A DNA stretch of 64,000 nucleotides, taken from an uncultured Winogradskyella sp. Its GTDB lineage: Bacteria; Bacteroidota; Bacteroidia; Flavobacteriales; Flavobacteriaceae. The translations under genes and the position numbers were made by a program. A model generated the notes under the pieces. That model was given only the letters and a program-made list of their open reading frames with translations. It was not told the origin of the DNA and made no database searches. This document shows positions 16,894-37,215 of this stretch, one piece after another (the first letter of the stretch is position 1; each line of letters begins with the position of its first letter). The stretch spans positions 18,988 to 82,987 of the forward strand of contig CAJXLB010000011.1 of the NCBI GenBank assembly GCA_913055905.1. Reading direction: 5' to 3'.

Positions 16894-19800
16894 ATGAAAA
16901 TAAAAATTCTCTATCTGTGCGCATTGTTCTTCTCAATGATAATGCAGGGACAGACTGTTAATGTAAAAGGAACTGTTACAGAAGCTTCCTCGGGCTTACC
17001 ACTACCCGGAGTAAATGTGGTTATCAAAAATACCACCAAAGGGGCTTCAACAGATTTTGATGGTAATTTTACCATCGAGGATGTAAGTTTAAACTCAATT
17101 TTAGTAGTGTCCTACTTAGGTTTCCAAACACAGGAAATCAAAATAGTAGACGATAAACCGCTTTCAATCGCCTTGGTAGAAGATGCAGAAGCACTTAATG
17201 AAGTTGTAGTTATAGGTTATGGCACACAAACAAAGAAAGAGGTAACAGGTGCCGTGTCGGTAGTTTCTAGTGAAACTATAGAAGAATTAAAACCAACTCG
17301 AGTGGAGCAGGCACTTCAGGGTCAAGTTGCAGGTGTAAATATTACGTCCACTTCTGGTTCTCCAGGTTCAGCGTTAACCATTAATATTCGTGGTATTTCC
17401 ACAAACGGAGATAACCGTCCCTTAATACTCGTAGATGGTAACGTTATAGAGGATTTAAGTGTTTTAAACCCTAACGATATAGAAAGTGTTAACGTCTTAA
17501 AAGATGCGACTGCTGGTATTTATGGTGTACGTGCCGCCAATGGTGTTATTCTTATTAAGACCAAAACCGGTCGTAAAAACATGCCAACCACGGTTGAAAT
17601 CAATGCGTGGGGTGGTGTTCAAGAGACCACGAGGAAATTACCAACACTTAACGCAACAGAATATGCCTTGTTGGCCAACGAAGCTTTTGCTGCTAACGGA
17701 GAGGCTCTGCCATTTCCAGATGTCTCTGGTTTAGGTCAGGGAACTAATTGGCAGGATGAAGTTTTTGAAAGAGCTCCTATTTACAGTACTGCTGTGAGTA
17801 TAAGAGGTGGTACCGAGACTCAAACGTTTGCTTATGGCGCATCTATATTTTCTCAAGATGGTATAGTAGGTGGAAACAGAGCCAATTTTACACGACTCAA
17901 TCAAAGTCTAAATTATAGTTTGGACGTAACTGAAAATTTAAAATTCAATGCAGGAGTTATTTGGAATTACACCAACAGAAACAGATTAAATGAAGGCGGT
18001 ATTGGTTCGGTATTGTTTAATGCGGTCAATAATGCGCCAACCTTACCGGTAAGACAAAATGGTGGCTTCTCTATTTCTGAAGGTTTAGGTAATGAAGTAG
18101 TAAATCCTCTGCAACAAATTCAAAATAGTTATAATAGGCAACACGTAGATAGAATAAGTGGTGTGGCTGGACTATCCTACGATTTTCTCGATTATTTCAC
18201 AGCACAGGTAAATTATCAATTTAATTATACGGAAGAAGGTATTAGAACATTCCTGCCAGAACAGTTTTATGGAAGCGGTAAGGTATTCAATATTTTCACG
18301 AGTCAATTAACCGAAAATGAAAATATTTTTAGGGATTACACCTTTGATGCTTTCCTAAAGTATCAGAGATCATTTAATGAGGTGCATAATTTAAGTGTGC
18401 TTCTCGGAACGTCAGTATTCAAGACTGAAGGTTTTTTCTCAGGATTTATTGGGTTTGATGTAGGCAATGATATTGCTAATGCTAGTTTGGATAATACCTC
18501 TAATGTTGAGAGTATTTTTATAGGCCTACCACGTAATCCGTTTTTCGATTCTAGATTGCTTTCTTATTTCACTCGTATCCAATATGATTATAAAGGAAAA
18601 TACCTGTTCAGTGCAGTATTAAGACGCGATGGGTCTTCCGCATTTGGTCCAGAGAATAAATTTGGTTATTTCCCGTCATTTTCTGCTGGTTGGGTAGCTT
18701 CGGATGAGTCCTTTCTGGAAAATAATTCATTTTTCGACTTCTTAAAGCTACGTGCATCTTATGGTATTTTAGGTAACGACAGAATACCAGCTTTTGCTTT
18801 TGTCAGTACCCTCGACGGTGAGGCAACCTATGTATTAGATGGTACACGAGCTTTTGGCCAAGCAACAGGAAGAATTGCGAATCCAGAAATACAGTGGGAA
18901 CAGCAAAAAACGTTTGACATCGGTCTTGATGCCAGATTTTTGGACAATAAGTTCGATTTAACAATGGATTATTATATCCGTAGAACTGAAGATTTATTGG
19001 TATCTCCTCAAGTAAGCGGATTGCTAGGGCCAAGTGCGCCAGGTGCTTCTGCTCCTTTGGTTAACGCAGGGGTGATTGAAAATAAAGGATTTGAACTGGC
19101 CCTAGGGTACAATGATTATATAGGTGACGACTTTAAAATATCTGCGCGGTACAACTTAACAACTATAGATAATGAGGTGATTTCGGTAAGTGATGGCGTA
19201 GAATTTTTGGTCGGAGGTGCTTTTGGGATTGGACAAGACCCACCGGCACGCATGGAGACAGGGTTCCCATTAGGTTACTTTAGAGGTTTCAAAACAGCTG
19301 GCATATTCCAAAACCAAGCACAGGTTGAAAGTTTACCAACTATCAATGACAATGTAAGACCTGGAGACCTCATATTTGTTGATATTAACAACGATGGTGT
19401 CATAGATGATGATGACCGTACAAATATCGGTAATCCTATACCCGATTTCACCATGGGCTTTAACTTGTCCTTTGAATATAAAAATTTCGATTTTGTAGCC
19501 TACGCGTTCGCTTCTATTGGTAATGAAATAGTAAGAAATTACGAGCGTAATAATCCATTAACCAATAGAACTACCTATTATTTAGATCGATGGAGAGGCG
19601 AAGGTACAAGCAACTCATTTCCAAGAGTGACCACTGGAGCTAATTCCAACATTCTCTTTTCAGATTTTTATGTGGAAGATGGCTCATTCTTAAGAATGCA
19701 AAATATTACGTTAGGATACAGCTTGTCTGACAAGGCTTTGGAAAACAGCAAGTTAAGCAAGGTAAGATTTTATGCGGCTGTACAAAACTTATTTACATTA

Positions 19801-19920
19801 ACTGAATATCAAGGATTTGACCCAGTTCTCTCATCTGGAGCTCCAATAGGTGGTGGAATAGATGGTGGTGGCTACCCAAATCCACGTCAATTCTTATTAG
19901 GTATGAATTTAAAATTTTAA
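16894..19920 (+). CDS. SusC-type TonB-dependent transporter
   Basis: A 1008-residue outer-membrane transporter that imports glucan oligosaccharides using TonB energy. After a signal peptide (to about GQ at residue 20) come a carboxypeptidase-regulatory-like domain (VKGTVTEASSGLPLPGVNV), the SusC signature region ALNEVVVIGYGTQTKKEVTG, the plug (about 115-235, with the NIRGIS and LVDGN motifs) and a 22-strand barrel ending in phenylalanine (LLGMNLKF). susD starts four bases after its stop. It is the first gene of the PUL operon. Confidence 0.95.
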   Translation: MKIKILYLCALFFSMIMQGQTVNVKGTVTEASSGLPLPGVNVVIKNTTKGASTDFDGNFTIEDVSLNSILVVSYLGFQTQEIKIVDDKPLSIALVEDAEALNEVVVIGYGTQTKKEVTGAVSVVSSETIEELKPTRVEQALQGQVAGVNITSTSGSPGSALTINIRGISTNGDNRPLILVDGNVIEDLSVLNPNDIESVNVLKDATAGIYGVRAANGVILIKTKTGRKNMPTTVEINAWGGVQETTRKLPTLNATEYALLANEAFAANGEALPFPDVSGLGQGTNWQDEVFERAPIYSTAVSIRGGTETQTFAYGASIFSQDGIVGGNRANFTRLNQSLNYSLDVTENLKFNAGVIWNYTNRNRLNEGGIGSVLFNAVNNAPTLPVRQNGGFSISEGLGNEVVNPLQQIQNSYNRQHVDRISGVAGLSYDFLDYFTAQVNYQFNYTEEGIRTFLPEQFYGSGKVFNIFTSQLTENENIFRDYTFDAFLKYQRSFNEVHNLSVLLGTSVFKTEGFFSGFIGFDVGNDIANASLDNTSNVESIFIGLPRNPFFDSRLLSYFTRIQYDYKGKYLFSAVLRRDGSSAFGPENKFGYFPSFSAGWVASDESFLENNSFFDFLKLRASYGILGNDRIPAFAFVSTLDGEATYVLDGTRAFGQATGRIANPEIQWEQQKTFDIGLDARFLDNKFDLTMDYYIRRTEDLLVSPQVSGLLGPSAPGASAPLVNAGVIENKGFELALGYNDYIGDDFKISARYNLTTIDNEVISVSDGVEFLVGGAFGIGQDPPARMETGFPLGYFRGFKTAGIFQNQAQVESLPTINDNVRPGDLIFVDINNDGVIDDDDRTNIGNPIPDFTMGFNLSFEYKNFDFVAYAFASIGNEIVRNYERNNPLTNRTTYYLDRWRGEGTSNSFPRVTTGANSNILFSDFYVEDGSFLRMQNITLGYSLSDKALENSKLSKVRFYAAVQNLFTLTEYQGFDPVLSSGAPIGGGIDGGGYPNPRQFLLGMNLKF

Positions 19921-19924: not shown

Positions 19925-21391
19925 ATGATAAAGACAAAACACATATATATAATTTTGGCTATGGTTTTCATTGCCTCATGCAGTGATGACTTTGTAGATG
20001 TGGATCCACCGTTTGCAAATTCTGCAGATTACTTCAATTCAGAAGAAGATTACCAGAATGCACTTATTGGCGCTTATGATTTGTTGCAAACCACCTATAT
20101 CAACGTTATGATTGGGGAAATTGCCTCAGACAACACCTTGTCCGGTGGCGAAAGTGCAACGGACGTTATTGGAATACAAGAGATTGATGAGATGCAGCAT
20201 AACCCAGTAAATCAACAACTAAGAGATATTTGGGGCTGGATGTTTTCTGGTGTTAATAGAGCAAATTATATCATGCAGTATGAAGATAAAACACCTTTTC
20301 CAGGAAAAGAGAATGTAATAGCGCAAACCCGTTTTTTAAGAGCGTATTATTACTTTGAATTGGTCAAATTCTTTGGTGATGTACCATTAGTAAGGGATCG
20401 TGTTGTCGAATTTGGAGATGAGCGTGATATTCCAAAAGCACCCAAGGAAGACGTCTATGCATTAATAGAGGAAGACTTAATTTATGCGGCTAACAATTTG
20501 CCACTTCAGCAATCTGAAACCGGAAGAGCAACAAAAGGCGCTGCACAAGCGCTTTTAGGAAAGGCTTATCTCTATCAGGAAAAATATGCCGAAGCAGCTG
20601 ACGTTTTGCAAGAGGTGATTAATTCTGGACAGTATGCCTTATTAGAGGATTACAGTACTATGTTTGAGAATAACAATGAGAATAATATCGAATCCGTTTT
20701 CGAAGTGCAATATACAGACGAAGAAGGAGCCGGTTTTGGTTGTTTGCAATGTAGTGAAGGTAATATCGCTGTTGGCTTTAATGGAATTAGAAACTACAGT
20801 GGTCCAGTATTTGGGTCTGGTTTTAGCTTTAACGTACCTACCCAGGATGTCGTTGATGCTTTTGAAGACGGAGATACAAGACTCGAAACAGCTATTTTGG
20901 ATATTGAGGCCTGGGCAGAAGAAACAGGCGCTACTTATGCCATTGGGTATAAACATACAGGATATTACAATAGAAAATATATTGCCAGGCAAGGAGATGC
21001 GGATATTGGAGATGCTAACTTAACTAATCCTAACAATTACAGAGCTATACGATACGCCGATGTGCTCTTAATGGCGGCAGAGGCTTTGGCTAGTCCAGAG
21101 GTTGGAAATGATTCACAAGCCTTGATTTACCTTAATCAAGTTAGGGAACGTGCTTTTGGAAGTACAGCCAATAATCTATCAGTAGGAGGAATTGGACTAA
21201 GAAACGCTATCCAACAAGAACGCCGTGTAGAGCTCGTTGGAGAAGGGCACCGCTTCTTTGATTTGGTAAGAACAGGTGAAGCAGCCAATGCTATCGATGG
21301 TTTTCAAACCGGAAAAAATGAGGTATTCCCAATACCACTTATCGAAATAGAATTAGCTGGAAATCAGTGGGAGCAAAATCCAGGGTATTAA
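19925..21391 (+). CDS. SusD-type glycan-binding lipoprotein
   Basis: The 488-residue lipoprotein forms the lid of the SusC pore and binds the incoming glycan. The lipobox cysteine is at residue 19 (FIASC) and is followed by SDDF, which matches the flavobacterial surface-export signal. Tetratricopeptide-like helices of the SusD/RagB fold are seen at RANYIMQYEDK, RFLRAYYYFELVKFFGDVPLV and the C-terminal YRAIRYADVLLMAAEA, QERRVELVGEGHRFFDLVR, all standard SusD signatures. Confidence 0.95.
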   Translation: MIKTKHIYIILAMVFIASCSDDFVDVDPPFANSADYFNSEEDYQNALIGAYDLLQTTYINVMIGEIASDNTLSGGESATDVIGIQEIDEMQHNPVNQQLRDIWGWMFSGVNRANYIMQYEDKTPFPGKENVIAQTRFLRAYYYFELVKFFGDVPLVRDRVVEFGDERDIPKAPKEDVYALIEEDLIYAANNLPLQQSETGRATKGAAQALLGKAYLYQEKYAEAADVLQEVINSGQYALLEDYSTMFENNNENNIESVFEVQYTDEEGAGFGCLQCSEGNIAVGFNGIRNYSGPVFGSGFSFNVPTQDVVDAFEDGDTRLETAILDIEAWAEETGATYAIGYKHTGYYNRKYIARQGDADIGDANLTNPNNYRAIRYADVLLMAAEALASPEVGNDSQALIYLNQVRERAFGSTANNLSVGGIGLRNAIQQERRVELVGEGHRFFDLVRTGEAANAIDGFQTGKNEVFPIPLIEIELAGNQWEQNPGY

Positions 21392-21401: not shown

Positions 21402-23396
21402 ATGAAAAGAATAGGTTTTATAGTATTAGCATCAGTATTAACAGTGCTGATGGCCTGCTCGGAAGACGAGCGCGATATAGATTTTATTAATGATGTAGAA
21501 GCACCTTCAGACGTATCAATATTATTTGTGCCAACAACAGATAATAGTGGTTTGGTGACCTTAATTCCTAGTGGAACTGGAGCTTCCTTTTTCGATGTAT
21601 TCTTTACCGAGAATACGCAAAACCCAGTGAGACTTGGGGCCGGAGAAGTGACTCAAAATATTTATGAAGAAGGGACTTACACTGTTAAGACCATTGCAAC
21701 TGGTGTTACAGGAAAACAGACAGTAGTTGAGCAAACGCTTAATGTGTCATTTATTCCTCCTCAGAATTTGGAGGTAAACATTGCCAACGATGGTGCAGTT
21801 TCCAATACAGTTCGTGTTACGGCAACAGCTGATTTCGGAATAAATTATGAAGTAGACTTTGGAGAGACTATAGGTGACGATAGTGACGTGGTTATGGCCA
21901 ATATTGGTGACGAAATCGTGTATGAGTACGATGAACCTGGCCTCTACACCATAGTTGTTACTGCTTTTAGTGCAGCCATAGAGACAACGGAATTTATTAT
22001 AGAGGATTTTGAGGTTACAGAGGTATTGGCACCAATTACGGCAGCACCAACACCAGCTGTACCTGCAGCTGACGTCATTGCTATTTATAGTGACTCGTAT
22101 GATGTAATTACCACCAACGAGTTTCCAACTGAGTGGTCCAACTCTGGTTTTGAAGAAATACAAATTGATGGAAATAATACTATTCAATACGGAAATCTTG
22201 CCTTTACAGGTATTGTCACAGACTATAGTAATCCTACCGACTTATCCACAATGGAATTTGTACATTTCGATTATTGGACAGCCGATGCAACTACATTAGG
22301 ATTTAAAATCGTAAATACAGCTTTAGATCCACCTCAAGAAGATATCGTGGAATTACAAGAAGTAGTGCAAGATCAATGGGTAAGTGTTGATATTCCATTG
22401 GACGATTATAATATGGATCGTTCTCAAGTCACACAATTATTATTTGATACGCTAGGAAATGTCGCCACTGTATTTATAGATAACTTGTACTTCTACAGGG
22501 AATCAACATCGTTCTTCTTCAATGATGGGCTTGTCACTAACGGTAACTTCCAAGCAGGAAGCGATAATTGGATTGTTGGTGTTGATGATAATGCGCCAGC
22601 ACCAGTAACCTCTCAAGCAGGAAATATTTTCTATAGCGTTGATGTAACCACCCCTGACCCTGGACAGCCATTCTTAGTGAATGTGAGTCAGAAATTAGAA
22701 ATTATTGAAGGTGAGACTTATGAACTTTCATTCGAAGCATGGTCAAATGTTAACCGATCTATTATCGCAGGTATAGGTTTAAGCGGACCTCCTTTTTCAG
22801 CTACAGTCGAGACAGTGAGTATTACGCCAGTAGTAACCAGATACACTTTGGAGTTGCCTGCTTCTGGATTTGGAGCCTTGGATGCCCGAATTTTATTTGA
22901 CCTAAATGGTGATGCAGGAATCGTTAACATAGATAATGTCTATCTAAGAAGAGTTCCTCCAAATGATTTAGTAACAAATGGGGATTTTGAAAATGGAAGT
23001 GAATTGTGGTTGGTAGGAGTAGATGACAACAGTTCTGCACCTACAGCGACCTTAAATGGTGACACCTTCTATTCGGTTGATGTTACTAGCCCAGATCCAG
23101 GTCAGCCATTTTTAGTAAACCTAAGTCAAAAACTTGAAATTATCGAGGGCGAAACATATACGCTAACATTTGACGCTTGGTCTAATGTTAATAGATCAAT
23201 TATTGCAGGTATTGGATTAAGTGGTGGCAGTTTTGCTAATAATAGCCAGACTGTAAACATAACCCCAGAAATTACAACCTACTCGCTAACATTGACCGCT
23301 GACGGTTTCGGTGCTCCAGATGCAAGAGTGCTATTCGACAATGCAGCTGAGGCAGGAGTTGTGAATATAGATAACGTAACCTTGGAGCTCAATTAA
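21402..23396 (+). CDS. Multi-domain surface glycan-binding lipoprotein
   Basis: The 664-residue lipoprotein (lipobox MAC, cysteine 19, then acidic SEDERDID) is built from two PKD-like domains (about 30-118 and 119-205), a beta-sandwich module (about 215-366) that recurs in two other proteins of this locus, and two tandem CBM4-like domains (375-518 and 521-663) that share blocks such as DPGQPFLVN, SQKLEIIEGETY and AWSNVNRSIIAGIGLSG. It has no catalytic domain. It occupies the SusE/F position right after susD and should hold glucan at the cell surface. The repeat DNA is far more diverged than the protein, which suggests selection to keep both copies. Confidence 0.85.
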   Translation: MKRIGFIVLASVLTVLMACSEDERDIDFINDVEAPSDVSILFVPTTDNSGLVTLIPSGTGASFFDVFFTENTQNPVRLGAGEVTQNIYEEGTYTVKTIATGVTGKQTVVEQTLNVSFIPPQNLEVNIANDGAVSNTVRVTATADFGINYEVDFGETIGDDSDVVMANIGDEIVYEYDEPGLYTIVVTAFSAAIETTEFIIEDFEVTEVLAPITAAPTPAVPAADVIAIYSDSYDVITTNEFPTEWSNSGFEEIQIDGNNTIQYGNLAFTGIVTDYSNPTDLSTMEFVHFDYWTADATTLGFKIVNTALDPPQEDIVELQEVVQDQWVSVDIPLDDYNMDRSQVTQLLFDTLGNVATVFIDNLYFYRESTSFFFNDGLVTNGNFQAGSDNWIVGVDDNAPAPVTSQAGNIFYSVDVTTPDPGQPFLVNVSQKLEIIEGETYELSFEAWSNVNRSIIAGIGLSGPPFSATVETVSITPVVTRYTLELPASGFGALDARILFDLNGDAGIVNIDNVYLRRVPPNDLVTNGDFENGSELWLVGVDDNSSAPTATLNGDTFYSVDVTSPDPGQPFLVNLSQKLEIIEGETYTLTFDAWSNVNRSIIAGIGLSGGSFANNSQTVNITPEITTYSLTLTADGFGAPDARVLFDNAAEAGVVNIDNVTLELN

Positions 23397-23442
23397 GTTT
23401 AAATTTTTAGTTGTTTAGATGACATTATATAAAAATGGAAAA

Positions 23443-24378
23443 ATGAAAAAATTAAAGAATATATTTTCAATACTTTTAGTTCTTGCGGTTACGACGAGTT
23501 GCCAAGAAGAAGACCAGGAATTTGGACCAGTGTTGGCGCCTACTAACATCAATATTGAATTAACATACTTAGACGATATTGACGATGATGGCGAATTGGA
23601 TGAGGTCGATGCACCAGGATTAGGCAGTGGCTTTGTTAAGTTTAGTGCCACAGCAGACAATGCCATTTCTTTTGTTTTTGAAATTGACAATATTAGAACT
23701 ACAGCAGTAAATGGTGAGGCTACTCTCATTTTTTCAACACTTGGCCTAAACACCTACAATGCCACAGTTATTGCCTACGGTACTGGTGGAGCCTCTTCAA
23801 GTCAAACCATTCAGCTAGATGTTTTGTCAACTTTTGAAGCGCCAGCAGAATTAATTACCATGCTTACTAATGATAGTGAGCGTACTTGGCGTATAAAAGC
23901 CGAAGTGCCTGGCCATTTTGGTCTGGGACCAATAGGAGGGATCTTCAACGAATTCTTTTCCGCACCTGCATTTGATAAAGAGGGTGTAGGAATGTATGAT
24001 GATCGCTATGTATTTAATGTAGATGGTACCTTTACTCACATCACGGATAGTACAAATGATAGTCCAGATGTAAATCCAGAGGGTACTGTATTCGGCAGGG
24101 AAAACCTTATAAACGAACTTAACGGTCCAGGAAGTGGTACACCTAATGGTGCCGATATCGAAAATTATCCATATTCGGACTACACGGAAAGTTGGTTTAT
24201 CACGGGTCCTGGTGGTGTAGAAACCTTAAATTTAACAGGAATTGGGTTCTTAGGTTATTACATTGGAGGTGATCATACTTATACCATTGAAAGCAGATCT
24301 ACCAATGAAATGGTAGTAAGGTCCACGGATGGCAATGGCGAATTTGATTGGGGTTTTATATTAATTGCTGATGAATAA
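23443..24378 (+). CDS. PKD-containing surface lipoprotein
   Basis: An acidic lipoprotein of 311 residues from the ATG at 23443, which gives a normal signal peptide (MKKLKNIFSILLVLAVTTSC); an upstream ATG at 23419 would add eight residues. The cysteine is followed by QEEDQE, a surface-type signal. A PKD-like domain (about 25-135) is followed by a compact C-terminal domain (about 140-311, beginning SERTWRIKAEVPGHFG) rich in Gly, Phe and Asp that resembles domains often found beside SusCD pairs. Non-catalytic; probably a second glycan-binding protein. A strong hairpin follows it. Confidence 0.75.
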   Translation: MKKLKNIFSILLVLAVTTSCQEEDQEFGPVLAPTNINIELTYLDDIDDDGELDEVDAPGLGSGFVKFSATADNAISFVFEIDNIRTTAVNGEATLIFSTLGLNTYNATVIAYGTGGASSSQTIQLDVLSTFEAPAELITMLTNDSERTWRIKAEVPGHFGLGPIGGIFNEFFSAPAFDKEGVGMYDDRYVFNVDGTFTHITDSTNDSPDVNPEGTVFGRENLINELNGPGSGTPNGADIENYPYSDYTESWFITGPGGVETLNLTGIGFLGYYIGGDHTYTIESRSTNEMVVRSTDGNGEFDWGFILIADE

Positions 24379-24493: not shown

Positions 24494-24527
24494 ATATGGC
24501 AAAAAACAAGCACGTTTTTTGCCATAT
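24494..24527. terminator. Perfect 14-bp hairpin between PUL blocks
   Basis: ATATGGCAAAAAAC (24494-24507) and GTTTTTTGCCATAT (24514-24527) form a perfect 14-bp stem with loop AAGCAC. It ends the susCD block and sits just upstream of the promoter for the next gene. A terminator or processing site is most likely; an operator is possible because it is a perfect inverted repeat. Confidence 0.65.
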
Positions 24528-24633: not shown

Positions 24634-27600
24634 ATGAGAAAATACCTATTTGCGCTAACCTTTATGTTTGGCTGTTCATTAGTCTTTTCCCAATCCAATG
24701 TACGGGTGTCAAAAGACGCTAGTGGTATGACATTACTAGTTGATGGCAAAGAATTTATGATTAACGGTATGAACTGGGATTACATTCCAATTGGTACCAA
24801 TACAGTTGATGCCAAATTTTGGGAAAAATCAGATGATGTCATCAAGGCAGGTTTAGACACTGAAATGTCCCTATTGAAAAATATGGGCGTAAATGTAATT
24901 AGACAATATACTGGCGTTCCAGCAAGGTGGATCCGATATATTTATGAGAATTACGGCATTTACACTATGTTAAATCATTCTTTTGGCCGATATGGTTTAA
25001 CCTTAAATGGAGTATGGACACCTGTTACTATATACGACGACCCTGTTACCGAGGAATTTTTAATGCAAGAGGTAACCCAATTGGTAGAGGAGTACAAAGG
25101 AACGCCTGGCTTGTTGTTTTATCTTTTAGGTAATGAAAATAATTATGGTTTGTTCTGGCAAGGAGCGGAAACAGAAGATTTTCCAGATGACGAAGATCAA
25201 AAGGCCTATATCGGTGAAAAACGCGGTCGTCCTATGTATAGACTTATGAACGAAGCGGCAAAGGCCATGAAGGCTATAGACCCCTCACGTCCTGTGGCTT
25301 TGTGTAACGGTGATGTGTTGTTTATAGATATTATAGCAGAAGAGTGTCCAGATATTGATATTTATGGTACCAATACCTATCGTGGAGTTTCTTTTACAGA
25401 TATGTTTGATACCGTGAAGAATAAATTGGATATGGCTTTGGTTTTTACAGAATTTGGCTCCGACGCCTATAACGCAAAAGAAAATAAGGAAGACCAAAAA
25501 ATGCAAGCCTATTACAATTTAGGAAACTGGAAAGAAATCTATCAACATGCCGCAGGGTTAGGAAAAACAGGCATATCAATTGGTGGATTTACGTTCCAAT
25601 TCAGTGACGGTTGGTGGAAATATGGTTTTGATGATCGCGAAAATGCAGACAGACATGATAACAATGCCTCATGGACCAATGGAGGTTACGACTGGGATTT
25701 AGCGCCTGGACAAAACAACATGAACGAGGAGTGGTTTGGTATTTGTGCCAAGGGTCCTACTAACGAAAGAGGACTTTACGACCTATATCCAAGAGCAGCA
25801 TATTACGCATTAAAAGAGGCACATCAACTCGATCCCTATGCAGATGGCATGACAGCAGAGTTTGTTGAGAATTACTTTAACAGTATCAACTTAATGGATG
25901 CCGTACTTAGAGCAAGAGGAGATAAAGCTGCTTTAGAAGGTAGTGGCGCCGAGAAGCTAAGAATTAGCCAATTACAAGCAAAGTTTACAACCTTTAATAC
26001 AGGAGGAACACTTATTACAACGCCAGACAATCCTGATGCCACACAACCAGACGCTGTTCCTAATCAACTTGGATTTGATCATATGCAGTCATTTTTCGTT
26101 GGTGTTGAAGGAAATCCAGCAGCTAATTTAAGAGCGGAGGTTGTTTTAAACGTTGTTGGTAACGTTGCACAAAATCCTATCGATGAGATTTTTTACGAGA
26201 CCATCACAAGACGCATAATAGTTGATGAAGATACAGATGCCGTTGTTAATCAAGGAGATCGCGTAAATCTTTATCAAGCCGAATTCGAGTGGAATGCTAA
26301 AGATTTCGATGTAAGAGGATTTTATCGTACAGGCCATTATCATTGGCAATATGAAGGAGATTTCTTCGGTTTGTATCCAGAAGCTAACTATGGTCCTAAT
26401 CTGGACATTTATGGCGGTGAAATTTTAGGTGCTGAAATCGACGGTAAAGGAGATTTAGAAGGGTTAAAAGCTGCCATTGGTCCACAATTGTGGTGGGGAG
26501 CCAACCCAACCATGTTATTTAAGTATCAGAAAAAATTAGGCCATTTTGATGTTGCAGCGATTTATCATCGCGATTTTGAAACAGATTTACAATTTGATGA
26601 GTCTGGTCGTCGTGTTTTAGACCAGAACCAAGTACGAAGTGGTATTATTCCAGCTTGGCCCACGGAACGCGCTTCGATTGCTATTAATCGGGAATTTGGA
26701 AAATTCGGTGTAACCCTTGGAGGTATTTGGGCCGGTAGTCCGCTAAACGGCAGTTCTTTCCAAGATGTGGAGAATGGTGTTGTCTTTGTAGATAAAGTAG
26801 AAAGCAAAGATAACTTCGGAGGAAAAGTAAAAGTTACTTATGAAGGCGGTAAATTCAATTGGTATGGCCAAGGCTCGTATATGGGACTTGTGGCCAACGG
26901 TGGTTTTGATGCTACTCAAACTTTTACAGGCTGGAAACTTAAGGATTCAGGAAGTGGAAACATGACTAATTTCTTGACTGGTTTCACTTATTCTTTCGAT
27001 AATTTCCAAATCGCACCAAATTTTATGTGGCAAAAGCCATTGGTTGATCCAATGCCAAATAATGGGCCAGCACCAGGTCGATTAAGAAATGTTATTGACG
27101 ATCCGTTTGCCGTTAGGGATTGGAACAGGGAAACTACTGCAGGTGAAATCTTATTCACTTATGATCCTACACCGGGAACGTGGATGTACCAATGGGATAA
27201 TGACAGATCAGAGGATGCCAAGTTCGCTATGAATTTAGGTTTTGTCTACAGACATTTACCAACAACCATGGATGCACATATTGGTTTCTTGGCCACTCGT
27301 GAATTTTTTGCTTTCCCAACATCGGTTCCGGCACAGGACTTATGGGAAGTGCATTCCAGAATGGTGTCTAAATTATCGCCAGATTTAGGAATTATTGGTA
27401 ACTTCTACTACGGAAATGGACAGGCCAATGGTGATAGCGATAGAACAATTTACCGTTTTGGTGGCGATATAAGAGCCATATACAAAAAGATGAAATTAGA
27501 GACTCATTTAAAAATTAACGATTGGGGACCATTCGATTATCACAGGGATTTTAACTTAACGTTCCCAGTGCAGTTTATGATGGACATTTCAACCTCATTT

Positions 27601-27807
27601 GGGAAACCAGACTGGTTTATTCTTCCCAATACCACTATTGGTTTAAGAGGAACATGGCGATCCTTAGATGAATTCTCTAACAGATACGCGCCAACATTTG
27701 TCCCAGCTGACACCTTTGCTACAGATCCAGTATTAACTCCTGTAGGATTCCCTGATGGTTCGGAATGGGAAATAAGAACGTACGTGCACATTAACATTGG
27801 TAGATAA
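24634..27807 (+). CDS. Clan GH-A glycoside hydrolase fused to an outer-membrane beta-barrel
   Basis: The 1057-residue protein begins with a signal peptide without lipobox (cleavage near FSQ|S, residue 20). Residues 22-400 form a TIM barrel of clan GH-A type with probable acid/base Glu168 (LLGNENNYG) and nucleophile Glu273 (VFTEFGSDAYN). A linker (about 400-478) leads to about 580 residues of alternating aromatic/Gly-rich strands (for example AEFEWNAKDFDVRGFYRTG, KKLGHFDVAAIYHRDF, KFGVTLGGIWAGS, INIGR at the end) with short turns and long loops, the pattern of an outer-membrane barrel of roughly 16-20 strands. It is the first gene of the second PUL block. The GH family is uncertain (GH2-like, GH5, GH158 or GH72-like are candidates); a beta-glucan substrate is inferred from context. 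Confidence 0.75.
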   Translation: MRKYLFALTFMFGCSLVFSQSNVRVSKDASGMTLLVDGKEFMINGMNWDYIPIGTNTVDAKFWEKSDDVIKAGLDTEMSLLKNMGVNVIRQYTGVPARWIRYIYENYGIYTMLNHSFGRYGLTLNGVWTPVTIYDDPVTEEFLMQEVTQLVEEYKGTPGLLFYLLGNENNYGLFWQGAETEDFPDDEDQKAYIGEKRGRPMYRLMNEAAKAMKAIDPSRPVALCNGDVLFIDIIAEECPDIDIYGTNTYRGVSFTDMFDTVKNKLDMALVFTEFGSDAYNAKENKEDQKMQAYYNLGNWKEIYQHAAGLGKTGISIGGFTFQFSDGWWKYGFDDRENADRHDNNASWTNGGYDWDLAPGQNNMNEEWFGICAKGPTNERGLYDLYPRAAYYALKEAHQLDPYADGMTAEFVENYFNSINLMDAVLRARGDKAALEGSGAEKLRISQLQAKFTTFNTGGTLITTPDNPDATQPDAVPNQLGFDHMQSFFVGVEGNPAANLRAEVVLNVVGNVAQNPIDEIFYETITRRIIVDEDTDAVVNQGDRVNLYQAEFEWNAKDFDVRGFYRTGHYHWQYEGDFFGLYPEANYGPNLDIYGGEILGAEIDGKGDLEGLKAAIGPQLWWGANPTMLFKYQKKLGHFDVAAIYHRDFETDLQFDESGRRVLDQNQVRSGIIPAWPTERASIAINREFGKFGVTLGGIWAGSPLNGSSFQDVENGVVFVDKVESKDNFGGKVKVTYEGGKFNWYGQGSYMGLVANGGFDATQTFTGWKLKDSGSGNMTNFLTGFTYSFDNFQIAPNFMWQKPLVDPMPNNGPAPGRLRNVIDDPFAVRDWNRETTAGEILFTYDPTPGTWMYQWDNDRSEDAKFAMNLGFVYRHLPTTMDAHIGFLATREFFAFPTSVPAQDLWEVHSRMVSKLSPDLGIIGNFYYGNGQANGDSDRTIYRFGGDIRAIYKKMKLETHLKINDWGPFDYHRDFNLTFPVQFMMDISTSFGKPDWFILPNTTIGLRGTWRSLDEFSNRYAPTFVPADTFATDPVLTPVGFPDGSEWEIRTYVHINIGR

Positions 27808-27811: not shown

Positions 27812-29287
27812 ATGCAAATGATGAAAAATATAAATTACAAAATAGGTAGAACCACAATCGTATTGGGATTATTATTAATCTTCAATTTAGGTTGTGAAAG
27901 AGACCTTACGGATGAAGCTGTCTTAGCAACGTTTCCTACTACAGCAGAGATATATACCGATAACCCTGTTGGTCTAACAGACGAGTTCTTTATTTCTTTT
28001 GATCCAGCTGTTGGTGCTAATCCTGAGGCTTTCGGTACAGATGATAACGAGTCTTATGAAGGAACCTCTTCCATACGCATAGACGTTCCTGGACCAAACG
28101 ACCCAAATGGGACGTTTGCCGGCTGTATATTTAGAGACCGTGGTGAAGGAAGAAATTTAACGGGTTACGACGCCTTAACGTTTTGGGCAAAAGGAAGTAC
28201 CACTGGGGTTTTAGGAGAAGTTGGTTTTGGTGTCGATTTCCTTGAAAATAAATTTCCTGTGAATCGTGCGAATATTCAATTATCTACAGATTGGAGAAAA
28301 TATGTCATTCCAATTCCTAATCCAGAAAAATTGGTTCAGGAAAGAGGCATGTTTTTAATTGCTGTGGGATCCTTCGATGTGTTGGGCAACGATGACCCAG
28401 CACTGGCAGATTCTTTTAGCGACAATTCTGGTTGGATTGTTTGGTTGGATGAAATTAAATTTGAACGTCTCGGAACTACGCTGACGGTGAATGCAGAAAT
28501 ATTGGATGGACAAAACCTTGTTCAGGAATCCTTTTCAAATACCACTACGACTATTACGGGCTTGAGTCAAACGGTTAACCTAGCAACTGGTGAAAATGTA
28601 ACAGTTGGCGTAGCACCAACTTACTTTGATTTTAATTCATCAAATCCTGCAGTAGCAACAGTTGATGAGAATGGTGTTGTTAATGTCGTTGGACAATCTG
28701 GCACTACTACGATTACCGCTGTTCTTGGTAATAATCAAGCTCAAGGCTCGTTGGAGATAACGGCACTGGGAGATTTTCCTTTGGCACCCGTACCAGACGA
28801 CCCGGCCGCCAATGTTCTTTCTATTTTTAGTGATTCCTATACAGATGTTGTGGATGCTAATTTTACACCTGGATTTGGAGGGTCCACGACACAAGCTTCA
28901 GTATTAAGTATTGGCGGAGAGGAATTTGTAACCTATGAAAATAACAACTTCACGGGTATCATGTTCGATAATAATCCAATAGATGGTTCTGCTATGTCGT
29001 TTTTACATGTTGATATTTTTGCACCTGACGCTTCTACTCAAGTAGAATTTCAAATTAGGGACATAGGAAGTAACCAGGAGATAGAAACAAATGAATTTAC
29101 CGGTTTCCCCACGGGAGATGATGTAGATTATAGAGTAACACTCAATGGACTAACACCAAATGAATGGAATTCTATAGACATACCGCTAGTTGGAAATTTA
29201 ACAACTCAAAGAAACAATCTCGGAGCTATAATATTAGTTGGTGGTCCAAGCTTTATTTTGGATAACATCTACTTCTTTACCGAATAA
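27812..29287 (+). CDS. Carbohydrate-binding lipoprotein with Big_2 domain
   Basis: A 491-residue lipoprotein from the ATG at 27812 (further ATGs at 27818 and 27821); an upstream in-frame start at 27797 would overlap the previous gene. The lipobox cysteine, at residue 28 (FNLGC), is followed by ERDLTDE. Three parts are visible: a CBM-like beta-sandwich (about 35-220, with YDALTFWAKGS and WRKYVIPIPNP), a bacterial Ig-like Big_2 domain (about 225-318, SNPAVATVDENGVVNVVG), and a C-terminal module (about 325-491) homologous to modules in the proteins at 21402 and 41381. No catalytic site. A surface glycan-binding protein. Confidence 0.8.
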   Translation: MQMMKNINYKIGRTTIVLGLLLIFNLGCERDLTDEAVLATFPTTAEIYTDNPVGLTDEFFISFDPAVGANPEAFGTDDNESYEGTSSIRIDVPGPNDPNGTFAGCIFRDRGEGRNLTGYDALTFWAKGSTTGVLGEVGFGVDFLENKFPVNRANIQLSTDWRKYVIPIPNPEKLVQERGMFLIAVGSFDVLGNDDPALADSFSDNSGWIVWLDEIKFERLGTTLTVNAEILDGQNLVQESFSNTTTTITGLSQTVNLATGENVTVGVAPTYFDFNSSNPAVATVDENGVVNVVGQSGTTTITAVLGNNQAQGSLEITALGDFPLAPVPDDPAANVLSIFSDSYTDVVDANFTPGFGGSTTQASVLSIGGEEFVTYENNNFTGIMFDNNPIDGSAMSFLHVDIFAPDASTQVEFQIRDIGSNQEIETNEFTGFPTGDDVDYRVTLNGLTPNEWNSIDIPLVGNLTTQRNNLGAIILVGGPSFILDNIYFFTE

Positions 29288-29310: not shown

Positions 29311-30174
29311 ATGAAGCAAATGAAGATTTTAAAATCAATACTCGCATGCGCTGTGTTATTAGCTGGTACTTTGTTAATAACAAATTGTGAGGTGGATGAG
29401 ACCCAGACCGTCACAAATTTTGAAAACCTCGTCATGGCGGATGAATTTGATGTCGATGGCGCTCCTGACCCAACCCTTTGGACATACGATATTGGCGATG
29501 GATCGGCAGAAGGTATTCCAGGTTGGGGCAATAATGAATTGCAATATTATACAGACAGACCCGAAAATGTTAAAGTAGAAAACGGACTGCTTGTTATCAC
29601 GGCAAGAGAAGAGGCCTTCGATGGAAGTTCCTATACCTCCGCCAGGATTACAACACAAAATTTATTCGAGCAACAATATGGTCGATTTGAAGCGCGAATT
29701 AGAATGCCACTTGGTAAAGGCATTTGGCCAGCGTTCTGGTTGCTAGGTAATGATTGCGACATCAATCCATGGCCACAGTGTGGTGAAATTGATGTTATGG
29801 AATATCTAGGGGACGCACCAACCATCGTTTTCGGTAGTGCCCATGGTCCAGGATATAACGCAGGTGATTCCATCTCAAAAGAATACGAGTTGGAGAACGA
29901 TCGTTTTGATACAGGATTCCATGTATTTGGAATAGAGTGGGGTCCAGATTATATCAATTACTACGTTGATGACGAATTGTACCAACAAATAACCCCAGAA
30001 ACAACTGCTGAAGAGGCTGTTGATAATGTTCCTAATCCTGGAGAATGGGTTTTCAATCGCCCATTTTACATTATTCTGAACATAGCAGTGGGTGGCAACT
30101 TGCCAGGCGCACCAAATGAAGATACCCAATTTCCACAACGAATGTATGTGGATTATGTTAGGGTGTATAACTAA
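29311..30174 (+). CDS. GH16 endo-beta-1,3-glucanase (laminarinase) lipoprotein
   Basis: A glycoside hydrolase family 16 enzyme of 287 residues from the ATG at 29311 (a TTG at 29299 is less likely). The signature GEIDVMEYLG places the nucleophile at Glu159, the assisting Asp161 and the acid/base Glu164. GIWPAFWLLG, FGSAHGPGYN and FHVFGIEWGPDYINYYVDD are further laminarinase marks, and the bulge residue (methionine between D and E) fits the beta-1,3-glucanase branch. The lipobox cysteine (TNC) is followed by EVDE, pointing to the cell surface. It makes the first cuts in laminarin-type glucan. Confidence 0.92.
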   Translation: MKQMKILKSILACAVLLAGTLLITNCEVDETQTVTNFENLVMADEFDVDGAPDPTLWTYDIGDGSAEGIPGWGNNELQYYTDRPENVKVENGLLVITAREEAFDGSSYTSARITTQNLFEQQYGRFEARIRMPLGKGIWPAFWLLGNDCDINPWPQCGEIDVMEYLGDAPTIVFGSAHGPGYNAGDSISKEYELENDRFDTGFHVFGIEWGPDYINYYVDDELYQQITPETTAEEAVDNVPNPGEWVFNRPFYIILNIAVGGNLPGAPNEDTQFPQRMYVDYVRVYN

Positions 30175-30186: not shown

Positions 30187-31008
30187 ATGATAGCTTTAAA
30201 AAATAAAATTAGCATAGTATTCGGCTTAATCATGGCCTTGATTATGGTCTCTTGTGATGGCAAGGAAGAAACTGAAACGTTTAATTTAGAGGCAAGGTTT
30301 ATAAGTGATGTTCAGGGCAGAACGATTAATTTTACCAATGTTTCTAATGATGCAACAAGTTACCTTTGGGATTTTGATAATGGTACAACGTCTTCGGTTA
30401 TCGACCCTGTCGTTGAATTTGAAAACGGCACCTATACGGTAACCTTAACTGCTTTTGACGGTAGAGGGAATTCAGCAAGTTTTAGTCAGACCTTTGATAT
30501 TGACTGTGAAACAGATGAGAATATAGATCCGGCTAACGGTAATCTCAATTGGACGTTCTTAACTGCATCTCCAGCAACAACGTTTGATGCCTTTGGGAAC
30601 ACAGGAGGAGGTATAGTACAAAATCCTGTTGAAGATGCAGTAAATTCAAGTTGTAATGTACAGCAATTCGTAAAAATACCAGGATGTTTTACGTTTGCAG
30701 GTTTAGGTAAAGAGTTAAATACAGCGCTGGATTTTAACGATCCGGACGCGAGTAAAGTCTTTACAATGAAAGTACTAGCCGAGACTCAGGTCACTGAAGT
30801 AACATTAAGACTGGAGTTTATGCCTTTCCCAAATGTAGATCCGGCCGTAGACCGTGTTGCAACAATCACAGAAGTGGGAGAGTGGCAAGAGCTTACCTTC
30901 GATTTTACGGGCGTAACAGGAACATTTAAGAGTATGATTATCTATTTTGAGAGAAACGCACCTTGCGATGGCGATGTCTATTATTTTGATGATATAATTC
31001 AGCAATAA
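30187..31008 (+). CDS. PKD lipoprotein with C-terminal carbohydrate-binding-like domain
   Basis: The 273-residue lipoprotein (lipobox VSC followed by DGKEETET) has one PKD domain (about 30-105, with ATSYLWDFDNGTTS and YTVTLTAFDGRGN) and a C-terminal beta-sandwich (about 110-273) that ends in YYFDDIIQQ, a typical last strand of CBM-like domains. It follows the GH16 gene by 12 bases, so it is co-transcribed. In many laminarin loci such a protein helps the GH16 enzyme bind glucan. No catalytic residues seen. Confidence 0.8.
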   Translation: MIALKNKISIVFGLIMALIMVSCDGKEETETFNLEARFISDVQGRTINFTNVSNDATSYLWDFDNGTTSSVIDPVVEFENGTYTVTLTAFDGRGNSASFSQTFDIDCETDENIDPANGNLNWTFLTASPATTFDAFGNTGGGIVQNPVEDAVNSSCNVQQFVKIPGCFTFAGLGKELNTALDFNDPDASKVFTMKVLAETQVTEVTLRLEFMPFPNVDPAVDRVATITEVGEWQELTFDFTGVTGTFKSMIIYFERNAPCDGDVYYFDDIIQQ

Positions 31009-31106: not shown

Positions 31107-34100
31107 ATGGTTGCTACTAACCAAGATACCAAATCAAAACAAAAGGAAGTAACTTTATCTAAGGTAAAGTTAGATAACAAGGCGTATTTTAAAATTGCGA
31201 ATCACGATAAGATGCGACCGTTCTTTATGAGCATTGTTAGTGACTCTAATCACTGGATGTTCATTTCAAGTAATGGTGGCCTTACCGCAGGACGCAAAAA
31301 TGCAGAGTATGCACTATTCCCCTACTATTCTGACGATAAGATCACCGAATCTGCTGAAATAACTGGAGCAAAATCCATATTTCAGGTAAAACGAAAAGGA
31401 GAAACGTATATATGGGAACCTTTTTCTATTCGTTTTCAAGATAAATACAAGATCAAGCGAAACTTGTATAAAAGCATATACGGCAATTCCATAGTTTTTG
31501 AGGAAGTAAACCTTGATTTACAGCTAACCTTCAAATATGAATGGTCTTCTAGCAACCTATACGGATTTGTAAAAACATCCACACTTTCCAATCAAGCAGA
31601 AGATGCGGTGGAAGTGAATATTCTAGATGGTATTCAAAATGTGTTGCCATTTGGCGTGAGTAGTGCTCTTCAAAATGCCAGCAGTAATTTGGTAGATGCC
31701 TACAAACGCACAGAATTAGTAAAAGATTCTGGAATAGGAATCTTTGCCTTAAGTGCTATCATTGTTGACAAGGCAGAGCCAAGCGAGGCCCTCAAGGCCA
31801 ATATAGCGTGGTCACTTGGTTTGGAGTCTCCCAAGTATCTATTGTCGTCACTTCAGCTTAAGGATTTTAGGGCATTCAAGGATATAGAACAAGAAACAGA
31901 CATTAAAGCTGAGAAAGGTGGTTACTTCGTAAACAAAACAATCACCTTAGCTTCAGGAGCTCAAAAGAAATGGTACATCGTTACCAACGTGAATCAAGAC
32001 AAATCGGATATTGTAAGCCTTTCGCAGGCTATACAAAAAGATGACGAGCTCGAACATAAACTACTGGATAACGTGGCATTGGGCACGCAAAAACTTATAG
32101 CCCTTAATGCCGCATCAGATGGACTTCAGTTAACATCAGATAACTTAAGAGACACACGCCATTTTTCCAATACGCTATTCAATATTATGCGTGGTGGTAT
32201 TTTCGATGATGGCTACACCATTGAAACATGGGATTTTAGAAAATATATAAAAGAGGCTAATAAAGATGTTTCAATTAGGCAAGCCAACCTTTTGAACAGT
32301 CTTAATGACAAAATAACCTTGTCGGAGTTAAAGGAAATTGCCAATACATCGCAAGATGAAGATTTTTGCAGGTTGGCATTGGAGTATATGCCATTGAAAT
32401 TTAGTCGCAGACACGGAGATCCAAGTCGACCTTGGAACAAATTTTCCATTAATACCAGAAGTGAGGTCGATGGGTCAAAGATTCTGGATTACGAAGGTAA
32501 CTGGAGAGATATTTTCCAAAATTGGGAGGCCTTGGTGCATTCTTATCCAGAGTACATCGAGAACATGATTCACAAATTCTTAAACGCCTCTACGTTTGAT
32601 GGTTATAATCCTTACCGAGTTACCAAAGGAGGTTTTGATTGGGAGACTATAGAGCCAGACGACCCTTGGTCTTATATAGGGTATTGGGGCGACCACCAAA
32701 TTATTTATCTTCAAAAATTCTTGGAATTTATCCAAAATCATGAACCAGGTAAGTTAGAGAGCTTCTTTACAAGAGATATATTCGTTTATGCCAATGTGCC
32801 TTATCGCATTAAATCCTATGAAGCGATTGTTCAAAATCCAAAGGATACAATAGAATTTGACGAAGAATCCGATCGTAAGATAAGAGCTAAACGTAACGCT
32901 ATAGGTGCTGATGGTGCTTTGTTATGCAATGCAAAAGACGAAGTAGTCAGAGCCAACTTTATCGAAAAGATTCTAGCGACCACCTTGGCGAAGCTTTCCA
33001 ACTTTATTCCCGAAGCAGGAATTTGGATGAATACGCAACGTCCAGAATGGAACGACGCGAACAATGCACTCGTTGGTAATGGCGTATCTATGGTCACGCT
33101 TTATTACTTAAGACGATTTTTAAAGTTTTTTGAACACATATTTGACCAAGCGTCTGTTAACGAAGTATTGGTGTCAAAGGAAATAGCTGACTTTTTTAGT
33201 GAGGTTAAAGAAACCTACAGTTCTAATGAGGGACTTTTAGCATCTGCAATTAGTGATAAAGACAGAAAGCTGATGATGGATGCTTTAGGAAAAGCAGGAA
33301 GTACATATAGAGACCGTGTCTATTCGAGTGCCTTTTCTGGAGAGAGGGAAACAATTACATTTTCAGAACTGAAAAATTTTGTGGCATCTGCACTAAAACA
33401 TTTAGAACATGCCATAAAAGCCAACAAGCGCGATGATGATATGTATCACGCTTATAATCTTATTACAATTAACGAAGATAATACGGTGTCTCTCTCCTAC
33501 TTAGATGAGATGCTAGAAGGTCAAGTGGCCGTTTTAAGTTCGGGCTATTTAAGTTCTAAGGAGAATCTAAAGGTATTAGATGGACTGAAACACAGTAGTC
33601 TGTTTAGGCCAGACCAATACAGCTATATCTTGTATCCCAATAAGGAACTAAAAGGCTTTATGGAGCGTAATAATGTTCCTCAATCAGCTGTCCAAGATTC
33701 AGAATTGTTACAAAAGCTGTTAGAAGATGGCAATACTCAATTGATTAAACAAGATATCAATGGCGGCTATCACTTTAATGGTAATTTTAAGAATGCAGAA
33801 GACGTTAAAGCTGCCTTAAATGACTTGGAGGAGACGAGCTACAAAAATTTAGTTACAGAAGATAGAAGAAAAGTTCTAAGGATATTTGAGCAAGTGTTCA
33901 ACCACAAGGCTTTTACGGGCCGTTCTGGCACCTTCTATGGTTACGAAGGATTAGGCTCAATCTATTGGCATATGGTGTCTAAACTTCAACTGGCAGTGCT
34001 TGAATGTTGTTTAAAAGCGATTCACGATAGTGAAGATGAGGTTGTTGTAGGGAAGCTGTTAGAGCATTATTATGAAATTAATGAAGGTATTGGCGTGCAT

Positions 34101-34565
34101 AAATCGCCACAGCTTTATGGGGCCTTTCCAACAGACCCATATTCCCATACACCATTTGGCAAGGGGGCTCAACAACCAGGTATGACGGGACAGGTTAAGG
34201 AAGATATTTTATCTAGGTTTGGAGAGCTTGGTGTTTTTGTAAATGATGGGCAACTATATTTTGATCCTTGTATGTTGCGACGAGAAGAGTTTTTGTCTCA
34301 AGCCATGACCTTCAAATATGTTGATGTTGCCGGGAAACAGGAAACTATCCAGCTCCAGCCAAAACAATTGGCATTTACATATTGTCAAGTGCCAGTGATT
34401 TATGAGGTTTCTAACCACAATGGACTTGAAGTGTCACTAGAAGATAATTCAACTCAAAAGTTCGACAAACTAACGTTAAACAAAAATCTTAGTTCATCTG
34501 TGTTTGAAAGGAAAAATGAGGTCAAACATATTAAGGTAACAATTGAAAAAAGTTATTTAAAATAA
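31107..34565 (+). CDS. GH149-type beta-1,3-glucan phosphorylase
   Basis: The 1152-residue protein has no signal peptide and so is cytosolic. Its plan, an N-terminal beta-sandwich (WMFISSNGGLTAGR near residue 50) followed by a long helical-barrel catalytic region (PDDPWSYIGYWGDHQ near 515-531) and a C-terminal beta domain, is that of inverting glycoside phosphorylases related to GH94. The length and the beta-1,3-glucan setting point to family GH149, which cleaves beta-1,3-oligoglucans with phosphate to give glucose 1-phosphate. It conserves ATP compared with hydrolysis. GH94 or GH161 are alternatives that a family search would separate. The GH17 genes follow directly. Confidence 0.75.
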   Translation: MVATNQDTKSKQKEVTLSKVKLDNKAYFKIANHDKMRPFFMSIVSDSNHWMFISSNGGLTAGRKNAEYALFPYYSDDKITESAEITGAKSIFQVKRKGETYIWEPFSIRFQDKYKIKRNLYKSIYGNSIVFEEVNLDLQLTFKYEWSSSNLYGFVKTSTLSNQAEDAVEVNILDGIQNVLPFGVSSALQNASSNLVDAYKRTELVKDSGIGIFALSAIIVDKAEPSEALKANIAWSLGLESPKYLLSSLQLKDFRAFKDIEQETDIKAEKGGYFVNKTITLASGAQKKWYIVTNVNQDKSDIVSLSQAIQKDDELEHKLLDNVALGTQKLIALNAASDGLQLTSDNLRDTRHFSNTLFNIMRGGIFDDGYTIETWDFRKYIKEANKDVSIRQANLLNSLNDKITLSELKEIANTSQDEDFCRLALEYMPLKFSRRHGDPSRPWNKFSINTRSEVDGSKILDYEGNWRDIFQNWEALVHSYPEYIENMIHKFLNASTFDGYNPYRVTKGGFDWETIEPDDPWSYIGYWGDHQIIYLQKFLEFIQNHEPGKLESFFTRDIFVYANVPYRIKSYEAIVQNPKDTIEFDEESDRKIRAKRNAIGADGALLCNAKDEVVRANFIEKILATTLAKLSNFIPEAGIWMNTQRPEWNDANNALVGNGVSMVTLYYLRRFLKFFEHIFDQASVNEVLVSKEIADFFSEVKETYSSNEGLLASAISDKDRKLMMDALGKAGSTYRDRVYSSAFSGERETITFSELKNFVASALKHLEHAIKANKRDDDMYHAYNLITINEDNTVSLSYLDEMLEGQVAVLSSGYLSSKENLKVLDGLKHSSLFRPDQYSYILYPNKELKGFMERNNVPQSAVQDSELLQKLLEDGNTQLIKQDINGGYHFNGNFKNAEDVKAALNDLEETSYKNLVTEDRRKVLRIFEQVFNHKAFTGRSGTFYGYEGLGSIYWHMVSKLQLAVLECCLKAIHDSEDEVVVGKLLEHYYEINEGIGVHKSPQLYGAFPTDPYSHTPFGKGAQQPGMTGQVKEDILSRFGELGVFVNDGQLYFDPCMLRREEFLSQAMTFKYVDVAGKQETIQLQPKQLAFTYCQVPVIYEVSNHNGLEVSLEDNSTQKFDKLTLNKNLSSSVFERKNEVKHIKVTIEKSYLK

Positions 34566-35861: not shown

Positions 35862-35886
35862 CGTAAAGCTCAAAAAGTAAAGACAA

Positions 35887-37203: not shown

Positions 37204-37215
37204 AAGTAAACTTTG

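Follow-up and report, generated by a model that had tools for sequence, protein, structure and literature searches.

We analysed a 64,000-nucleotide stretch of DNA from an uncultured Winogradskyella sp. (contig CAJXLB010000011.1, positions 18,988 to 82,987; hereafter the window, in whose numbering positions are given) and find that a gene on its forward strand (24634..27807) encodes, in a single 1057-residue chain with no internal stop, a glycoside hydrolase (GH) fused to a predicted outer-membrane beta-barrel. We propose that this protein is a pore without a plug that carries a tethered beta-1,3-glucanase on its periplasmic side and imports laminarin fragments instead of SusC and SusD (SusCD) or, as here, alongside them; we put the probability of this reading at roughly 60%. 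Laminarin is one of the largest marine sugar flows, and its uptake by Bacteroidota is usually ascribed to SusCD. The fusion suggests an overlooked route for algal sugar.

One chain, two domains

The first-pass annotation, made from the letters of the window alone, had read the gene as a signal peptide, a hydrolase and an outer-membrane barrel with no stop between them, and the open reading frame, AlphaFold2 and Foldseek bear this layout out (Table 1). By sequence reading, the N-terminus is a Sec-type signal peptide ending in LVFSQ/S. Cys14 lies within it (FMFGC), and because the nearest relative (L002) carries Leu there, a lipoprotein anchor is unlikely. In Pfam searches up to E 0.1 the sole domain found is Glyco_hydro_2_C (residues 34-304; score 26.7 bits, cut-off 21), and NCBIfam gives nothing beyond a sub-threshold beta-galactosidase match. 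The chain has one match across the whole source genome. A near full-length chain is encoded at 80 of 80 close loci, a set taken from 520 relatives met, at 68-89% identity, and the fusion is therefore not an assembly accident.

AlphaFold2 models of the full chain (predicted local distance difference test, pLDDT, 70; predicted template modelling score, pTM, 0.49) and of the barrel alone (pLDDT 72, pTM 0.74) agree on about 24 strands within residues 442-1055, with no soluble beta-sandwiches. The barrel of roughly 580 residues placed earlier at 480-1057 is thus recovered as a barrel, and its start shifts to nearer 442 in both models. Over 26 predicted strands, mean hydropathy at alternate positions differs by 2.32, a value that none of 2000 within-strand shuffles reached (mean 1.43, maximum 2.16). 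The lengths between strands average 23.5 residues after odd strands and 4.9 after even ones (rank test p = 9e-5, the barrel side having been picked after viewing the data), with exceptions at even turns of 20 and 10 residues and odd loops of 7, 7 and 11. Among 33 relatives, length variation is confined almost wholly to the odd loops. The predicted structure therefore combines what is expected of an outer-membrane barrel: an even number of amphipathic strands, long loops with short turns, and a signal peptide.

Structural matches point the same way. All 50 Foldseek matches listed for the barrel alone are, judged by title, outer-membrane barrels or complexes with one, and include TonB-dependent transporters, LptD, ushers, the Mtr complex, Occ-type porins, AlgE, chitoporin and general porins. 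Against Pfam and Protein Data Bank (PDB) sequence profiles the barrel gives chance-level matches only. Pfam finds no plug or TonB-receptor model in the fusion up to E 0.1, and the SusC of the window scored positive as a control. From the models we conclude that the barrel is probably plug-less with about 24 strands. A SusC-derived barrel was considered and rejected: hhalign of the fusion barrel against local SusC barrels detects no profile relation (probability 1.3%), in what is a weak test with two narrow profiles (effective sequence numbers 2.1 and 2.9).

The hydrolase is predicted to face the periplasm

Because the strand number is even and long loops alternate with short turns, the model places both barrel ends, and hence the GH domain, on the periplasmic side. 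Since only about 13 residues (429-441) join it to strand 1, the GH domain should hang at the periplasmic mouth of the barrel. The earlier suggestion of an integral surface enzyme is not borne out, as loop lengths and the short linker both point to a periplasmic GH domain. We weighed the alternative of a surface-displayed GH domain, threaded through the barrel or kept outside it, with the barrel acting as an anchor or an autotransporter-like translocator. Enzyme-then-barrel chains do occur among type V secretion systems, and laminarin needs cutting outside before it can fit a pore. However, the classical autotransporter translocator consists of 12 C-terminal strands, whereas this barrel has about 24 in 614 residues and no Pfam autotransporter match, and we reject an autotransporter; the linker also seems too short for threading the GH domain across the membrane, the loop pattern has strand 1 starting on the periplasmic side, and the operon already has a GH16 lipoprotein with a surface-like N-terminus. 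Surface display thus appears quite unlikely. Type IX secretion was likewise rejected, as Pfam and NCBIfam find no C-terminal sorting domain in the fusion and a control match was obtained on a neighbour (41381-43036).

Lipoprotein signals in the window suggest how its other enzymes are placed. Acidic residues after the lipobox Cys mark surface lipoproteins in Bacteroidota. Three to five acidic residues occur among the ten that follow this Cys in the SusD, the CBM4_9 protein, the 319-residue protein, the partner lipoprotein encoded next to the fusion, the GH16 and the PKD protein; the GH17s and the GH30 have one or two acidic and one to four basic residues there. On these grounds the GH16 and the partner lipoprotein look surface-exposed and the GH17s and the GH30 look periplasmic. 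Relatives of the GH domain that stand alone, without a barrel, carry a plain signal peptide (for example, L139 and L179) or a likely lipobox (for example, L140, L141, L143 and L178), which fits a periplasmic enzyme without proving it.

The enzyme domain resembles GH158

The paired glutamates singled out by the first-pass annotation, E168 and E273, are present: in the AlphaFold2 model the first (NEN motif) follows beta4 and the second (TEFG motif) lies on beta7. Both are invariant in a 65-row alignment (A1), and wherever the two positions align the pair is kept (191 of 191 loci, some being the same genome twice). In the profile alignment N-E of the fusion falls on N-E of the GH158 structure 6pal and the Glu of TEFG on that of its TEWG motif; these are N136-E137 and E220 of BuGH158 (chain positions, offset 22). 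According to PMC7157763, alanine mutants of BuGH158 at these catalytic positions are inactive.

Family searches place the domain nearer GH158 than GH2. With a 28-row profile, the PDB search returns GH158 structures first (6pal, E 8.5e-8; 9oro, 6.7e-5) and GH2 beta-galactosidases next; these E-values are for the whole sequence, and the best single stretch never reaches 1e-3. Foldseek with the full model ranks GH158 chains 1-6 (E 8e-13 to 2e-11; TM-score by target 0.52-0.55), in alignments that extend past the enzyme (519-557 columns, root-mean-square deviation 19-21 Å). GH2 glucuronidases follow, many at 6-8 Å, with TM-scores by target of 0.36-0.41. Family models run on 28 members gave GH2 scores in 26 and weak scores for GH72 in six, GH53 in four and Glyco_hydro_cc in five. 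AlphaFold2 confidence is low for residues 326-367. We describe residues 22-400 or so, for which the first-pass annotation had left the family to be assigned, as a clan GH-A TIM barrel that resembles GH158 endo-beta-1,3-glucanases more than GH2; as GH2, GH72, GH53 and Glyco_hydro_cc models also score, its placement in the CAZy classification is left loose as GH158-like, of beta-1,3-glucan type.

A conserved laminarin gene set, usually without SusCD

The fusion belongs to a kept unit of fusion, partner lipoprotein and GH16, usually with GH149, GH17, GH30 and a major facilitator superfamily (MFS) transporter. The partner lipoprotein adjoins the fusion at all 80 close loci and at 27 of the 28 wider loci (other genomes), its start codon 4-13 bases past the fusion stop. 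All 59 close loci with some 10 kb of flank on either side have the lipoprotein and GH16; 52 have GH149, 34 a GH30 match and 20 an MFS gene, GH30 and MFS often lying past the retrieved stretch. The laminarin context proposed from the window alone is thus supported.

The first-pass annotation had set the fusion beside SusCD. This is so in the window, which has the susC/susD pair of a canonical polysaccharide utilization locus (PUL), and it is not the rule elsewhere. SusC is nearby in 20 of the 59 close loci (twice on the opposite strand) and was not found within about 10 kb in 39. Upstream stretches of at least 4 kb were available at 72 loci: the regulator ends less than 600 bp from the fusion in 49, the distance exceeds 2 kb in 20, and in three no regulator was found. 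Among 31 regulator-adjacent genomes four have a SusD at E<=1e-60 (36-39% identity), and a close orthologue of the SusD of the window was found in none. At the wider fused loci, where flanks are mostly 7-10 kb (2.6 kb upstream at one), SusC occurs in 3 of 28, all in the family of the window, and in 0 of 24 outside it. Ten proteins were scanned at three SusC-less wider loci; those upstream include a mutase, a redoxin, a GH81 and, at L197, two Porin_O_P porins, and none of the ten is a TonB-dependent receptor. Two fusion-bearing genomes, both 99% complete (G109 and G311), gave neither a SusC match at E<=1e-20 nor a SusD_RagB match at E<=1e-5, and the same SusD_RagB search was positive in four other genomes.

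Table 1. Features of the fusion gene and its neighbours, with positions in the window.
Feature	Position	Strand	Basis or remark
Regulator, Reg_prop/Y_Y_Y/LuxR-type	13834..16656	+	family models
SusC, plug domain present	16894..19920	+	family models
SusD	19925..21391	+	family model
CBM4_9 lipoprotein	21402..23396	+	Pfam
319-residue lipoprotein	23419..24378	+	Pfam; no family above cut-off
Possible terminator between SusCD block and fusion gene	24494..24527	+	14-bp hairpin, T-rich tail; z -5.1
Fusion: signal peptide (residues 1-20)	24634..24693	+	read from sequence; Q20 invariant in alignment A1 (65 rows)
Fusion: GH158-like clan GH-A TIM barrel (23-428)	24700..25917	+	Pfam PF02836, GH158 profile matches (6pal, 9oro), Foldseek, AlphaFold2
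Fusion: E168, predicted acid/base	25135..25137	+	aligned with BuGH158 E137; invariant
Fusion: E273, predicted nucleophile	25450..25452	+	aligned with BuGH158 E220; invariant
Fusion: linker (429-441)	25918..25956	+	AlphaFold2 model; GD of RGDKAA invariant in 81 rows of alignment A4
Fusion: predicted outer-membrane beta-barrel, about 24 strands (442-1055)	25957..27798	+	AlphaFold2, hydropathy alternation, Foldseek, loop lengths; no Pfam family
Partner lipoprotein, Big-like domain	27812..29287	+	Pfam, comparison; C-terminal part like that of the CBM4_9 protein
GH16 lipoprotein	29311..30174	+	Pfam
PKD lipoprotein	30187..31008	+	Pfam
GH149 beta-1,3-glucan phosphorylase	31107..34565	+	NCBIfam NF058639, 1799 bits vs 1150; 6hq6; no signal peptide seen
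GH17 lipoprotein	34575..35861	+	Pfam
Second GH17 lipoprotein	35887..37203	+	GH17 score 21.5, under Pfam cut-off 28.2
GH30 lipoprotein	37213..38703	+	Pfam
MFS/GPH-type sugar symporter	38715..40145	+	family models

The GH149 assignment is firm on its family score. The 1.5 kb around the possible terminator hold two terminator-like sites, against a shuffle mean of 1.0. The two GH17 lipoproteins are tandem paralogues (34575-37203), and the best match of the second occurs in just 16 of the 59 flanked loci. Beyond the MFS gene (40221-44112) lie a GH17 without a visible signal peptide, a protein with a Por_Secre_tail type IX sorting domain and what is presumably a LacI-like regulator.

The content of this gene set also bears on whether the fusion might export or remodel a glucan that the cell itself makes. 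The barrel has the alginate exporter AlgE as one of its weak fold matches, and the GH72 scores noted above are those of a transglycosylase family; but the genes are catabolic (GH16, GH17, GH30, GH149, MFS), and no glycosyltransferase model matches among the proteins scanned at 13.8-41.1 kb of the window. We regard such a role as highly improbable.

Distribution and history of the fusion

Within the genus, 21 of 36 congeners have a full-length match, one more has it split and one has a fragment. A broken fusion gene, interrupted near residue 264, occurs in the same genus (L105, G031:C164:56417-59580). In a phylum-wide sample the chain is matched in 54 of 395 genomes and the barrel in 35. A sample of the order matched the chain in 51 of 346, many on short GH stretches only. 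Of the 36 barrel matches in the phylum sample, three are fragments and 33 lie in frames of at least 1028 residues, with room for enzyme and barrel. A class sample of 295 genomes, partly overlapping the former, gave 13 barrel matches, all in frames of at least 1041 residues. In these two samples, with the best three or four candidates per genome scored, no barrel was seen apart from its enzyme. Barrel identity is 52-60% in the wider rows. No relative on a viral contig was confirmed.

The fusion is present in two named records, one a Persicobacter plasmid and the other Bacteroides finegoldii WP_022275059.1. In B. finegoldii the genes after it encode a relative of the partner lipoprotein and GH16, with bglX lying farther along, and susCD is neither annotated nor matched in the 27-kb stretch. 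That record is filed as "plasmid 29" (L204, NZ_OY725931.1 18790-45784) and looks like a piece of chromosome, since it bears valine-tRNA ligase, rpsA and mazG.

Nine genomes have the GH domain without the barrel, at 50-68% identity, and eight of these nine genes adjoin other genes of the laminarin set. In the tree the stand-alone forms nest among fused forms, and well-supported branches force at least five label changes; the outgroups are on long branches and several forks are weak. Because of this nesting, repeated loss of the barrel is the simpler reading, and a stand-alone ancestor is not favoured. A strict trade-off between barrel and SusCD proved incomplete: SusCD is present at three of the nine stand-alone loci, and of the other six some have short flanks and the rest have no recognised outer-membrane transporter. 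A second, separate form of the domain, a distant relative of about 350 residues (with a lipobox in L148), lies between GH17 and GH30 in laminarin clusters without the fusion (L148, L180, L181).

That the enzyme is kept without its barrel in nine genomes might suggest that the barrel is a non-conducting anchor for a periplasmic enzyme, with uptake left to SusCD or general porins. SusC is indeed near in the window and at a third of the flanked close loci (20 of 59), and at one SusCD-less locus (L197 3176-7931) the fusion operon is immediately preceded by two Porin_O_P genes. Yet a lipid anchor would suffice, a 614-residue barrel conserved at the identity given above is a costly one, and SusC and SusD went undetected in two fusion genomes. 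We consider a purely anchoring role rather unlikely.

A proposed route for laminarin fragments

Our preferred reading remains a pore with its own enzyme. Import is suggested because the gene set is catabolic, the partner lipoprotein is constant and the set has no other recognised outer-membrane transporter; this supports the uptake role raised in the first-pass annotation. The surface GH16 would cut laminarin, the partner lipoprotein would hold the fragments outside the cell, and the barrel would admit oligosaccharides. Residues 23-428, acting as a retaining GH158-type beta-1,3-glucanase at the periplasmic mouth, would cleave them as they enter, so that an inward gradient is kept and the sugar is trapped without TonB. 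The GH17 and GH30 lipoproteins, the MFS symporter and the cytosolic GH149 would complete the breakdown. Because most relatives examined have no adjoining SusC or SusD, the fusion set could serve as an outer-membrane entry step without them; in the window it would work alongside SusCD. The fusion, its catalytic pair, the order of the genes and the spread across the phylum are read from sequence; the barrel and its orientation are predictions, and the pore function, the substrate and the sharing of tasks are inferred. About an even chance attaches, in our view, to the wider proposal of a glycan entry system that is spread across the Bacteroidota and independent of SusCD, in which a plug-less pore, its own periplasmic endo-glucanase and a glycan-binding lipoprotein replace SusC and SusD, the pull coming from cutting at the pore mouth and not from TonB energy.

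Several observations weigh against this proposal. The barrel has no close solved relative (TM-scores of its Foldseek matches to the query 0.24-0.40), the models, built from 65-81 sequences at 66-89% identity, are of moderate confidence (mean pLDDT 70-72), and the strand count could be 22-26. Many outer-membrane barrels end in an aromatic residue, and this chain and its relatives end in IGR/IGK or INI. A separate barrel paralogue could escape notice given the candidates scored per genome. SusCD is present in the window itself; the absence of SusC at other loci spans only about 7-10 kb each side, and of 14 genomes in the SusCD-less class 12 have SusC elsewhere, so that a distant SusCD may do the uptake in these. 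The Porin_O_P genes of L197 are within 5.2 kb upstream, and the two SusCD-less genomes were searched for SusC and SusD models and may have other porins.

Comparison with known systems

Laminarin gene sets with GH149, GH17, GH16 and GH30 and without susCD have been published (PMC5827456, PMC10108472 and PMC10811738, the last partly on Colwellia). GH149 clusters of carbohydrate-active enzymes (CAZymes) that lack susCD are mentioned in PMC5827456. According to PMC10108472, an NS4 genome has a variant-1 laminarin PUL from which susCD is missing, and PULs of this kind contain GH0 genes; the GH0 may be our fusion gene. These sets share their enzyme content with ours; in what we could see of them the outer-membrane step is left open and an enzyme-barrel fusion is not named. 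PMC13188888 presents a Muricauda laminarin cluster with a "GH2", and contig SGIU01000001.1 is among those given. On that contig (our locus L015) the fusion lies between the regulator and the lipoprotein, and this "GH2" is very likely the fusion. The fusion is a candidate answer to how sugars cross the outer membrane in SusCD-less laminarin sets, masked by the label "GH2". In open-access PMC literature, a limited coverage that makes this a weak negative, we found no description of a fusion of a glycoside hydrolase to an outer-membrane barrel, nor is one described in the available parts of PMC13188888, PMC7157763, PMC10108472, PMC10811738, PMC5827456, PMC6246565 and PMC13352502.

GH158 (BuGH158, 6pal; GH158(Pro), 9oro/9p25/9p26) is the first match by both PDB profile and Foldseek and shares with the fusion enzyme the clan GH-A TIM barrel, N-E after beta4, a Glu on beta7 and a beta-1,3-glucan context; identity in structural alignments is 12-14%. 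BuGH158 has, according to PMC7157763, a type II signal peptide and, at its C-terminus, an Ig-like domain; in the fusion that domain is absent and a barrel begins about 13 residues past the TIM barrel instead.

The GH2 beta-galactosidases and glucuronidases share the above-threshold Glyco_hydro_2_C match, and one public record names the fusion "glycoside hydrolase family 2 TIM barrel-domain containing protein". GH2 enzymes have N-terminal sugar-binding and Ig-like sandwich domains. In the fusion the TIM barrel starts from about residue 40 and these domains are missing by Pfam and the AlphaFold2 model, and we reject GH2 membership.

E. coli chitoporin (7vtz) is like the fusion in its proposed role of oligosaccharide entry and is a weak fold match to the barrel (TM-score 0.29); we take it to have 16 strands and no enzyme domain. 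SusC and other TonB-dependent transporters, finally, are also large outer-membrane barrels, the top fold matches of the fusion barrel, and SusC likewise heads a glycan gene set next to a surface-type lipoprotein, but the fusion has no plug or TonB-receptor model. If our reading is right, a pore and its enzyme are here made as one chain.

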